Source: an uncultured Thermoanaerobaculum sp.
Lineage (GTDB): Bacteria > Acidobacteriota > Thermoanaerobaculia > Thermoanaerobaculales > Thermoanaerobaculaceae
NCBI GenBank assembly: GCA_937934115.1
Contig: CALHAH010000028.1
Span: 1-64,000 of the forward strand
Length of the DNA stretch: 64,000 nucleotides
Reading direction: 5' to 3'
Shown: positions 1-4,633 of the stretch, one piece after another
How positions within the stretch are numbered: the stretch's first letter is position 1
Layout: each line of letters opens with the position of its first letter
Notes under the pieces: generated by a model
The model's database searches: none
Told to the model about the DNA's origin: nothing
The model's input: only the letters and a program-made list of their open reading frames with translations
Position numbers and translations under genes: made by a program

Positions 1-207
1 CGGGTTCGCAAAAAAAGGTTCCCCGCAGCCCACCTGGACGTTGAGCCAAGGCGAAACCTCACCCACGAACACGCGCGAAAGGTAGAAGCGCAGCGGTACA
101 AAGTAGCTGGGGTTATCGCGCGCTGTGGGCACAAAGCCCACGACCCCTAAAACCGCAACAAAAAGGCCCGGCAAAACGGCTGCAAGCGCCACCCCAAGGC
201 GTCTCAT
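1..207 (-). CDS. YfhO-like membrane protein (partial, N-terminus only)
   Basis: Only the first 69 codons are in the window; the gene runs off the left edge. It starts with ATG at 207, overlapping the stop of the upstream ligase gene by four bases (ATGA), so the two are translationally coupled. The peptide begins with a positively charged end and one hydrophobic segment (about residues 5-27). A short periplasmic stretch ending in a GCGEPFFANP-type motif follows. The same kind of N-terminus, in which a WNP/GGRPFWADP motif follows the first membrane span, occurs in the complete YfhO-like gene at 9276-11528. YfhO-type proteins are polytopic GT-C-like membrane proteins implicated in cell-surface glycosylation. 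The family call rests on this short stretch only. Confidence 0.6.
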   Translation of the reverse strand, partial: MRRLGVALAAVLPGLFVAVLGVVGFVPTARDNPSYFVPLRFYLSRVFVGEVSPWLNVQVGCGEPFFANP

Positions 208-1892
208 GCCCCGCCCCCCAATAACTTTCTCAGGCGAAGCTCCCGTCGCGGCTCGGGTCGAGCTAATCCTTCTTCGTAACGAGTCACAAAGGGGTATCCG
301 CGCGCCGCCCGTTTTACCCTTTCGGCCTGATGCCAAGACTTGCGAGCGCCCGCAAGGTCACCCAGGGCGCACTGAGCTTCGGCAAGAGCCAACCAACAAG
401 GTAAACAATTAGGCTCCAAAAGCACGCCTTGGCGCGCTGCGGCTTGAGCCCGGGAAGCATCTCCCAGGATCAGCCAAGCCTCGGTTTCACCTAGGGTGGC
501 CCATACGTCGTTCGGATTGAGCTCCAGGGCCCGCCGAAAGCTCCTGGTTGCGTCTTCCACGAGCTGGGCCTCACCGGTATTTTGCCCAAAGGCGAGCTGC
601 ACGAAACCCAACAGCCGCAGCACTTCCGCCGAGCGAGGTGCCAGGGAAGCAGCTTTGCTCAACGCAACCAGGCTTTTGGCAAGTTGCTCGGCTGTCGCGG
701 CTCGACTCTTAAGAAGATCCGTAGCTTGTCTTTTTGCTTTGGCTACCGGGCCTTCCCTATGAGAAACATTGAAGCCAGCCCAAACTGCAGCCGGCCACAC
801 GAGCAACAAGGCCAATATAGGAGAAAGCTTTACCCGCAAAGTCCCTGAGAAACGTCCCGCCACCAGGGCGGGGAGTGCCAAAACCGGAAAGAAAAGTTGG
901 CTGTGAACGCTGCTGGTGACACCCAAGGCCACCACCGGCCCCAAAGCGAGCCAGCCTCGTCCCGCCCAAGCGCGAACTGTGGTCACTACTAAAGCTAAAG
1001 CTAAAAAGAAACCCGGAAGTCCCAGCGATGCCACCACTTGCAAAACATCGCTTTCAGCTAGACCTGGGACCCGGTGATAGCGGGCAAACTCCCCTGAGCG
1101 GGGGAAATTTTTCGCGAGGGCAGCGTCGTAAAACCCGCCCGGGCCTGTGCCGAAAGGCAGGTAATCTAAAGCCACCGCTGCCGCCACCCCCCAAATCTTG
1201 ACCCTTTCAAAACGCATTGGGTCCCGGTCCTTTTGCAACCGCGAAAAAAGCCCCAAAAGACCCGTAAGCACCGCCAAACCCACGAGCCATCGCCACCGCC
1301 AGCGCGAGCCTGCAAAAAACCAAATACCACCCAAGGTTAACAGCGCCAGCAGCGCCGCCCGACTTTCCGAGGCGAAAAGCCCGCCCATCAGCAGCGAAGC
1401 GTGGAGTGCTAACCCCGCTCCACGCCGCCAGCGGAGGCAGGCCAACGCCAGCACCACCAGAGTGGCCGCTGGATTGGGGTTGCCGAAAGGGCCAGAGGGG
1501 CGTCCCGAAAGGAAAAGCGCCTCTATCAGCAGCCAACCAGCAGCCAGCGAGCCCGCTGCCACCACACCCGCTTTTAACCAGCCACGACCACAGGGATGAG
1601 CGACAATTACGGCCAAAAGCAAAACGAAAAATCCTGTGGCAAGCAGAGGGGAGGCCACTTCCCAAGCCACCGGCTGCACGAGGGCGGAAAGAAATACCCA
1701 CAAAACAAAACCTGAAAGCCAGAGAAATGAAAAACCAAGCCTAACGCCGCGGCACAGCCGCCGCCAAGCCAAAACACCTAAGACTAACCCCACCAGGAAG
1801 CCCGCCCCAGGCCCTAGGCCCACACCCCAGGCGTCGGCCACTAAAAAAACCATCACGGGCAGAAGAAACGCCTCAAGCTTTAAGGGCGGCAT
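204..1892 (-). CDS. O-antigen ligase-like membrane protein with C-terminal TPRs
   Basis: About 562 residues from ATG 1892; an alternative in-frame ATG lies at 1910. I prefer 1892 because GGGAG lies upstream of it. It has about ten hydrophobic segments in the first 370 residues. Hallmarks of the Wzy_C/O-antigen ligase family are visible: GPFGNPNP (about 134-141), SESRA (about 175-179) and PFGTGPGGF (about 246-254). The last 170 residues are soluble and Ala/Leu-rich with TPR-like pairs, the arrangement seen in many ligases that act on periplasmic acceptors. It would transfer a lipid-linked glycan to an acceptor on the outer face of the inner membrane. Its start overlaps the end of the upstream ligase gene by 13 bases, so both are probably one transcript. 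Whether the acceptor is lipid A or a protein such as the nearby pilins cannot be told. Confidence 0.8.
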   Translation of the reverse strand: MPPLKLEAFLLPVMVFLVADAWGVGLGPGAGFLVGLVLGVLAWRRLCRGVRLGFSFLWLSGFVLWVFLSALVQPVAWEVASPLLATGFFVLLLAVIVAHPCGRGWLKAGVVAAGSLAAGWLLIEALFLSGRPSGPFGNPNPAATLVVLALACLRWRRGAGLALHASLLMGGLFASESRAALLALLTLGGIWFFAGSRWRWRWLVGLAVLTGLLGLFSRLQKDRDPMRFERVKIWGVAAAVALDYLPFGTGPGGFYDAALAKNFPRSGEFARYHRVPGLAESDVLQVVASLGLPGFFLALALVVTTVRAWAGRGWLALGPVVALGVTSSVHSQLFFPVLALPALVAGRFSGTLRVKLSPILALLLVWPAAVWAGFNVSHREGPVAKAKRQATDLLKSRAATAEQLAKSLVALSKAASLAPRSAEVLRLLGFVQLAFGQNTGEAQLVEDATRSFRRALELNPNDVWATLGETEAWLILGDASRAQAAARQGVLLEPNCLPCWLALAEAQCALGDLAGARKSWHQAERVKRAARGYPFVTRYEEGLARPEPRRELRLRKLLGGGA

Positions 1893-3427
1893 AGGTGCTC
1901 TAACTCCCATAGCTCTCTGCGCCAAGGAGCTCTTTGCGTGGCTTCTCGAGCCCAGGCCCAGGCCTCGGCCCTGCGACCGCGAAGCATCAGCAGCAGGGCC
2001 CGGGCTTGGCACCAAGTGGCGGAGGTCGGGGCCACCCAAGCGCGCCTGACTAAAACGTGATCCACGTCTTCAGCCAGCTCCTTGTCTTTGATGTCCCAAG
2101 CAATCCCCGCCGCCTCGAAAACCTCCGCGAGCCGCCACGGGGTGAATGAGGCTGCCTGCAGCAAAGCAGACACCCTCTGGGCAGGCGGTAGCCGGCGAGC
2201 GCGCACAGCCATTTTTTGGCTTTTCTCTTCCAAGGCCGCCAATCCTACTACACCCACCAGGAGGAGAGCTAAGAACCGTCGCGGTCCACGGGGAAGGGGG
2301 GAGCCTGGCGGCGCTGCCGAGCCCGCCAGCAGTAAAGCCGCCAACAACAGGGCTGGTTGGTAAAACGAAAAGTCAAAAACATTGTGAACCAAAAAGATCA
2401 GGAGCGCGACTGCTGCCGGTTTGTAAGCCGACCAAAGTTGCGATACCAGGCGAAATGCACCATAAAGCAGCAGTGCGACTCCCGGCAACCCAATAACACC
2501 AAACTCCGCTATCAGTTGCAGGGGGGTGTTGTGCGCAAAAGGAGTAATATTCTGTGCAGCCCAAGGCGAAGTGAGACCCGCAAGCCCAACACCACCCAAC
2601 CCTACACCAGAAATAGGGTTTTGCCAAAAAACCCAAGCCGCAACCTTCCAATTGACCCATCTGAGCGCTAAGGGCTCTAGGCGAGGCAAATCGTGCCTCA
2701 GAAACGCCAGCAGTGCCAATGTGAAGAGCCCCACCGCTACGGCCCAGGAACTCGCTTTCTTTTCCACCCCCAAAACCAACAAAACCCCTAAAAGCCATAG
2801 GGCGGTGCCCAACAACGAAAGGGTTGCGATGCAACCGCCCAAGCTTAACAACACAAAAGCAAGCGGCACCATCCGCCGCCAACCCCGACTCCCCACCACC
2901 CATTGCACCAAAAAGGGAGCAGCAAAAGCTTGAAGCACTGCAAAGTGGCCTGGCAGGGGAAGGGTGCCAAAAGCCCGACCGGTAGCCAGGCGAGCCGAAG
3001 CAACCACCTGCAAGGATTCGGGTAAGGTGCTCAGCTCCGGCGGCGCCAAGGGCAACCCCCCAAGCGCTTGGTTGAGAGCAACCAGTGAAGCCATAGCCAC
3101 TTGCACCGCAGCCATTCGCCAAAAAGCCCAATCCTCGCGGACAACTGCGCCCAAGGTCCAAGTGGCCAAAGCTAGGGGAAACAGAAAGCCTAAGCTTAAA
3201 GCCCACTGACGGTCAAAGGCGTAAGGGTAGCTTAAGGCGTAAAGCAAGAGAGGAGCGATGACCGCCGGCCACTTTAAGGCGGCTAACGGCACGCAAGGAC
3301 GAAAAACAAGCCCATAGACGAGGAGAAGGCTCACAAACACCAACGACAAAGGACGGCCCAAGAAAAATTCGCCCCAAATCGCCAGCGTAACAACCGCTGT
3401 TGCTATCCACCGAGCATGAACCACCAT
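1880..3427 (-). CDS. O-antigen ligase/polymerase-like membrane protein
   Basis: A 515-residue polytopic protein starting at ATG 3427. About ten membrane spans cover residues 8-360, followed by a soluble helical tail rich in Arg and Ala. The Wzy_C-type signature is recognisable: a conserved NPISGVGLGG (270-279) and AHNTPLQ (298-304) with the usual His in the large periplasmic loop. It is a second ligase-like protein in tandem with the one downstream, suggesting one polymerase and one ligase, or two ligases with different acceptors. Upstream lies the terminator of the pilin gene, so it needs its own promoter; no clear Shine-Dalgarno is visible before the ATG. The TPR-like tail is shorter than in its partner. 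Confidence 0.75.
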   Translation of the reverse strand: MVVHARWIATAVVTLAIWGEFFLGRPLSLVFVSLLLVYGLVFRPCVPLAALKWPAVIAPLLLYALSYPYAFDRQWALSLGFLFPLALATWTLGAVVREDWAFWRMAAVQVAMASLVALNQALGGLPLAPPELSTLPESLQVVASARLATGRAFGTLPLPGHFAVLQAFAAPFLVQWVVGSRGWRRMVPLAFVLLSLGGCIATLSLLGTALWLLGVLLVLGVEKKASSWAVAVGLFTLALLAFLRHDLPRLEPLALRWVNWKVAAWVFWQNPISGVGLGGVGLAGLTSPWAAQNITPFAHNTPLQLIAEFGVIGLPGVALLLYGAFRLVSQLWSAYKPAAVALLIFLVHNVFDFSFYQPALLLAALLLAGSAAPPGSPLPRGPRRFLALLLVGVVGLAALEEKSQKMAVRARRLPPAQRVSALLQAASFTPWRLAEVFEAAGIAWDIKDKELAEDVDHVLVRRAWVAPTSATWCQARALLLMLRGRRAEAWAWAREATQRAPWRRELWELEHLCRP

Positions 3428-3950: not shown

Positions 3951-3977
3951 AACTGCCTCCTTTCGGTGTAACCTTAG

Positions 3978-3993
3978 TGCAGGTTTCGTGCCA
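3978..3993 (-). promoter_or_regulatory. Sigma-54 (-24/-12) promoter of the first prepilin
   Basis: The minus strand reads TGGCACGAAACCTGCA. It differs from the consensus TGGCACR-N4-TTGCW at one position (C for the first T of the -12 box), and the GG and GC are correctly 12 bases apart. Transcription would begin near 3967, giving a leader of about 17 nt that contains the GGAGG ribosome site of the gene starting at 3950. Confidence 0.75.
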
Positions 3994-4070
3994 CAACAAG
4001 CACGGCTGAGAGAACTGAACGATGCACGGTTTTGTCACTGCCGTGGCTGTGGTTGCCCAGTGGTGGCACC

Positions 4071-4517
4071 TCAACGGACCTGCACGCCTTCCGGCCATTG
4101 CATAAAAACCCCGTTCACAAGAGCAATGTCCGCGTCGTAATGGGTGGTGGGGCCTACATATGGTCCGCTTTGGGCCACACCGTCGGCTCCGTAACTCAAA
4201 ACCGTGTAATCCAGCCCCGAACCTTGGTAGAAGAGGTCACGCCGCCACCCATCTCGAACCGGCAGCACCTTCAAGTACGTGGGTTCCAGGTAAGGGCGAA
4301 GGCCGGTTGCGGTCCCTATCACTTGCGGCACGAACGCGTGATCGCTGGCGTAGGAGTTAATAGCCAGTGCCAAGGTTCGCATATCGGCCATGGTGCGTTT
4401 TTGACGGGCCCTTTCCAGCATTTGAAAGATCCGGGGAACCGCTATGGCAGCCACGATGCCCAGGATGGCTACCACGATCAACAGCTCAACCAACGTAAAC
4501 CCCCGTTGCGCTCTCAC
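4071..4517 (-). CDS. Type IV prepilin / GspG-like pseudopilin
   Basis: A 148-residue protein starting with GTG at 4517. The short leader (VRAQRG) is followed by FTLVELLIVVAILGIVAAIA, the class III signal, with Glu5. The next helix (RARQKRTMADMRTLALAIN) closely parallels the other prepilin, and both end in an FMQWPEG/FFQWPEG motif, so the two are paralogues. No in-frame start exists further upstream and no Shine-Dalgarno precedes the GTG. A sigma-54 promoter ends just before it, which implies a nearly leaderless mRNA. The gap to the next prepilin is 120 bases and holds that gene's own promoter. Role: subunit of a type IV pilus or type II secretion pseudopilus. Confidence 0.88.
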   Translation of the reverse strand: MRAQRGFTLVELLIVVAILGIVAAIAVPRIFQMLERARQKRTMADMRTLALAINSYASDHAFVPQVIGTATGLRPYLEPTYLKVLPVRDGWRRDLFYQGSGLDYTVLSYGADGVAQSGPYVGPTTHYDADIALVNGVFMQWPEGVQVR

Positions 4518-4529
4518 AGGTGCCGATTC

Positions 4530-4545
4530 TGCAAAATCCTTGCCA
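4530..4545 (-). promoter_or_regulatory. Sigma-54 (-24/-12) promoter of the second prepilin
   Basis: The minus strand reads TGGCAAGGATTTTGCA, matching TGGCACR-N4-TTGCW except A for the sixth base, with correct GG-GC spacing. The predicted start of transcription is about 4519, only about two bases before the GTG start codon at 4517. Confidence 0.72.
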
Positions 4546-4633
4546 CAAACGCGGGGATACGAGGGGCCAAACCAGCAACAAAAACGTCACCAGCGAGCCG
4601 CTTCCCGCTGGCGCGCAGACGACCAAAGGCAGG

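Follow-up and report, generated by a model that had tools for sequence, protein, structure and literature searches.

Conserved sigma-54 promoters before a pair of pilin genes in Thermoanaerobaculia, with a predicted leaderless message for the second pilin

Two sigma-54 boxes on the minus strand of the DNA analysed here (the window, 64,000 nucleotides from an uncultured Thermoanaerobaculum sp.) are confirmed, and comparison with related genomes points to them as the promoters of a pair of prepilin genes that we call pilin A and pilin B, with predicted transcript starts. It is likely that both boxes work as promoters for two pilins of a type IV pilus, of which A would be driven by a PilR activator and carry a leadered message, while B would be expressed from a leaderless one. 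This reading is built on features read from the sequence, namely the boxes and their conservation, paired sites upstream of A, a missing Shine-Dalgarno sequence at B and a fixed distance between the B box and its start codon.

The two boxes and the genes they precede

Promoter A (TGGCACGAAACCTGCA, 3993-3978) and promoter B (TGGCAAGGATTTTGCA, 4545-4530) each have one mismatch to the 16-base consensus used for scoring both boxes, TGGCAYGNNNNTTGCW; the invariant GG-N10-GC is intact in the two of them, and both fit the TGGCAY and TTGCW context. The usual distance from the -12 position to +1 in sigma-54 promoters is 12 nt and, since the -12 C sits at 3979 in promoter A and at 4531 in promoter B, transcription is predicted to start at 3967 and 4519, giving leaders of 17 and 2 nt, respectively. 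The first-pass annotation had reported the two boxes at these positions and on this strand, with one mismatch each and exact spacing, and had placed each directly before a prepilin gene, all of which we find to be correct. The genes downstream are pilin A (3950-3492, minus strand), a prepilin of 152 residues (MRRQKGFTLIELL) and the probable major pilin, with Pfam matches to N_methyl and T2SSG, and pilin B (4517-4071, minus strand), a prepilin of 148 residues with a GTG start, no Shine-Dalgarno sequence and matches to the same two models. Pilin A is preceded by the Shine-Dalgarno sequence AAAGGAGG (3956-3963, minus strand, by direct reading), and a Shine-Dalgarno sequence is found before this gene in 35 of 35 loci. 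No sigma-70-type promoter was found near the pilin boxes.

By the genome-wide motif count alone the two boxes are unremarkable, with 74 sites of this type at no more than one mismatch in the 2.42 Mb draft genome versus 46 for a reversed control pattern. Their gene position and their conservation in relatives raise both far above chance. In 34 of 35 distinct loci of related genomes a sigma-54 box lies 25-40 nt before the pilin A start, and in 30 of the 35 it has at most one mismatch, versus 0.05% of shuffles; the loci are related by descent, and such conservation counts are not independent events. That the boxes are chance matches, as the count against the reversed control and the many listed genome sites falling within long open frames might suggest, is extremely improbable and is effectively ruled out by conservation in relatives, as they hold a fixed position in tens of species though the flanking sequence diverges.

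A prepilin leader (GFTLxE) followed by a hydrophobic helix is present in A and B, through the N_methyl match. The C-terminal region of the two proteins is GspG-like but falls under the GspG equivalog cut-off, and their matches among solved structures include type IV pilus pilins as well as GspG. Near the pil cluster of this genome (G000 C35:6000-18046; L153, L226) there are also a second PilB/GspE-like ATPase, a GspD-like secretin and pseudopilins, which may form a separate type II-like system.

Paired sites before pilin A and the sigma-54 machinery

Upstream of promoter A, the relatives carry a pair of palindromes, each 17 bp long and built as GTGACG-N5-CGTCAC or GTGNC-N7-GNCAC. Counted from the T of the -24 element, their centres are 36-38 and 67-70 bp upstream, and they are spaced by 31-32 bp, about three helical turns. 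In the proximal register, 21 of the 35 pilin A loci agree at 10 or more of the 12 positions, versus 3 of 7292 background positions, and a strict composite pattern gives 20 matches in 37 genomes, every one of them just before pilin A (reversed control, 0). Two more distant loci (L093 and L097) have the pair at 115 and 147 bp, with the 32-bp spacing kept. In the window, the proximal site (GTGACAAAACCGTGCAT, 4022-4038, minus strand) is in register at 37 bp with the GTGACG-N5-CGTCAC of the relatives, and the distal site (GTGCCACCACTGGGCAA, 4053-4069, minus strand) is in register at 68 bp with their GTGCC-N7-GGCAC, though both are degenerate, matching at 7 of 12 positions each. We regard the pair as activator-like, that is, as candidate upstream activator sites of the PilR-regulated type, in a degenerate form in the window. 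These sites had been missed by the first-pass annotation, as had the missing Shine-Dalgarno sequence and the near-zero leader at B.

The window is contig C28 of the draft genome; of the named relatives found, Thermoanaerobaculum sp. SKYB76 is the nearest. The first-pass annotation had made its proposal depend on rpoN and had suggested looking for PilR-like activators as well. The genome does have rpoN, as that proposal requires, together with about 14 full-length sigma-54 activator domains, and on contig C35 the genes pilB, pilT and pilC are followed by a histidine kinase and then by an NtrC-type activator. From gene order together with a C-terminal signature we take these two to be PilS and PilR, and describe the pair as PilS-PilR-like; none of the NCBIfam models named the C35 kinase PilS or the C35 regulator PilR. 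In 36 of 40 relatives the activator has a clear orthologue.

Other boxes were observed elsewhere in the genome. Within a minor-pilin cluster, a sigma-54-like box (TGGCATCGGACTTGCA; L030, G000 C5:59859-59874) precedes a PilV-like prepilin (MHGQRGLTLLEV) by 36 nt and is a possible third pilus promoter. Two perfect boxes precede genes assigned by eye: one (L021, G000 C13:42551-42566) lies 58 nt before a small NHLP-type-leader-like gene, with a sigma-54 activator (L014) about 2 kb away, and the other (L024, G000 C22:54443-54458) stands before a Rieske-like protein, about 0.6 kb past the activator domain in L007.

Box-to-start distance at pilin B

The GTG at 4517 is the 5'-most start in the pilin B frame. 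All 21 typical B loci examined, 12 adjacent to A and 9 stand-alone, have a sigma-54 box, and at these loci, which belong to two families and include B genes far from A, the gap from box to start is 12-16 nt. The stand-alone loci, from the second family, are divergent from tRNA-Gly(CCC) (L178, L179, L181, L182, L184-L186, L189 and L190). Given the usual 12 nt between -12 and +1, this gap predicts a leader of 2-6 nt. At locus L085, one of those adjacent to A, the gap is 19 nt if an ATG is taken instead of the GTG. In two genus-g6 paralogues (L175 and L176) it measures 22 and 23 nt, and these carry site-like sequences near 36 and 67. The other convincing sigma-54 boxes of this genome have longer gaps to their genes. 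A Shine-Dalgarno sequence is absent at nearly all B loci, whether A-adjacent or stand-alone, which is weak evidence on its own because genes lacking one are not rare in this genome; the conserved spacing, and not the missing Shine-Dalgarno sequence, is thus the main evidence for a putative leaderless mRNA. The pilin B message, with its start as predicted, seems to be leaderless, which is unusual for sigma-54 promoters.

In Deinococcus-Thermus, leaderless genes are described in which a -10 element directly borders the start codon (PMC12340547). The two cases are alike in that a core element of the promoter keeps a short, fixed spacing to the start codon, and differ in that those promoters are of the -10 type (sigma-70 family), whereas the one proposed here is an activator-dependent sigma-54 promoter. 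A conserved sigma-54 leaderless case was not found in a partial literature search.

An activator site of the A type is not conserved at B over 12 loci. A half-site, GTGACG, situated at 37 bp and ranking 4th among 180 offsets, was considered as B's own activator site and rejected, as it is not conserved over these loci and overlaps a terminator-like hairpin (4588-4613, minus strand) of the gene upstream of B.

Separate or common control of the two pilins

The first-pass annotation had proposed that the two pilins may be tuned independently, each having its own promoter and the first ending at its own terminator. There is indeed an intrinsic terminator after pilin A (3469-3446, minus strand; a 10-bp stem followed by a T run), and it ends A, but it does not part the two pilins: none was found between B and A, where RNA structure is no more stable than in shuffles (z 0.82), and a terminator as separator of the two genes is rejected. 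Because no terminator separates them, B transcripts can read into A. The proposal of independent tuning loses its terminator argument and keeps a different footing, in that the cis-regulation of A and B differs consistently across the class and makes separate levels plausible; no evidence was found for A and B answering different signals.

Three other arrangements have to be weighed. The first, which we hold to be possible if doubtful, is that a different activator acts at B, through a site that is unrecognised or further upstream, so that A and B would answer different signals. The genome's 14 or so activators and the lack of a conserved A-type site at B are consistent with it, but no alternative conserved motif was seen on inspection of the B upstream alignments. 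The second, rather unlikely in our view, is a single co-regulated operon, with a B-A message made from promoter B or by read-through from upstream and promoter A only boosting A. It would agree with the absence of a terminator between the genes and with an intergenic gap that in most loci hardly varies from about 120 bp. Against it, A has its own conserved promoter, activator-like sites and Shine-Dalgarno sequence, B stands alone in the second family, and the terminator-like hairpin precedes B in the window; moreover, in loci L054 and L069, where A comes first, a terminator-like hairpin lies between it and B, and the box is still found before B. The third, which is improbable, is one enhancer for both promoters, with the paired sites of A activating B across about 500 bp. 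Activators that bind enhancers can work from afar, B beside A has no site of its own, and the stand-alone paralogue L176 carries its own pair at 36 and 67, all of which would suit such an arrangement, but most stand-alone B genes, far from A, likewise have no site, and a role of A's sites as a shared enhancer is not supported by this check.

In the preferred reading, with a leadered A and a leaderless B under separate promoters, phosphorylated PilR from the pilB-T-C-S-R cluster, as the most likely activator, would bind the paired sites centred near -63 and -95, which are 31-32 bp apart, and remodel the sigma-54 RNA polymerase at promoter A. The resulting mRNA, with a leader of 15-30 nt and a strong Shine-Dalgarno sequence, would yield an abundant major pilin. 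At promoter B, with the same sigma factor, transcription would begin 2-6 nt ahead of a start codon that has no Shine-Dalgarno sequence, and B, as an accessory pilin, would be made from a leaderless mRNA and probably in smaller amounts; some B-A message would also arise from this promoter, as no terminator lies between the genes. The transcript starts, PilR as the binder and the expression levels are what we infer here, as are the pilin roles, with A as the major and B as the accessory pilin, to which the Shine-Dalgarno sequence, the activator-like sites and the higher conservation of A (58-78% identity across the class) point.

Downstream of pilin A lies a gene for an O-antigen ligase-like membrane protein (1880-3427, minus strand), with a weak Wzy_C match below cut-off and a homologue beside the pilins in most relatives, followed by a protein with a TPR region and a Wzy_C match over cut-off (204-2039, minus strand), whose synteny is conserved in relatives; in most of them the two genes come after the pilins. 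The conservation of these Wzy_C-like genes beside the pilins suggests pilin glycosylation, and their products are candidate pilin O-oligosaccharyltransferases.

Most of what is known about the control of pilins by sigma-54 comes from Pseudomonadota, Geobacter and Myxococcus. The pilA genes of Geobacter sulfurreducens (PMC2725144) and Pseudomonas aeruginosa (PMC6058289) are controlled by RpoN and PilR, and in Geobacter pilA is directly downstream of pilR (PMC2725144). The system described here resembles these in the sigma-54 promoter of its probable major pilin, in the PilR-type activator and in the position of pilR after pilS in the pil cluster. It differs in that the pilins are encoded apart from the pilB-T-C-S-R cluster and have two promoters, the activator-like sites form a distinct fixed-register pair, and B is predicted to be leaderless. 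Legionella pneumophila has tandem pilins, pilA1 and pilA2, and in its pilR mutant the pilA2 mRNA in low iron is not significantly changed (PMC13170364). The likeness lies in two related pilins at one locus and a PilS/PilR system in the genome, whereas paired sites or a leaderless copy were not seen in the passages of that study consulted. Acidobacteria go unmentioned in the main text of a cross-phylum survey of sigma-54 regulons from 2025 (PMC12316311), and a partial literature search returned nothing on sigma-54 in connection with acidobacterial pili or on the pilins of Thermoanaerobaculum.

These findings extend sigma-54 control of pilins to a class within the Acidobacteriota, in which a specific activator-site code was seen before pilin A alone. 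The predicted leaderless sigma-54 message is conserved, and would link activator-dependent transcription with translation that is independent of a Shine-Dalgarno sequence. We lean towards the view that across families of the Thermoanaerobaculia the second pilin is made from an activator-dependent leaderless mRNA alongside a leadered, enhancer-driven major pilin, so that one sigma factor would serve two fixed protein levels, a possible simple way of fixing the ratio of two pilins.
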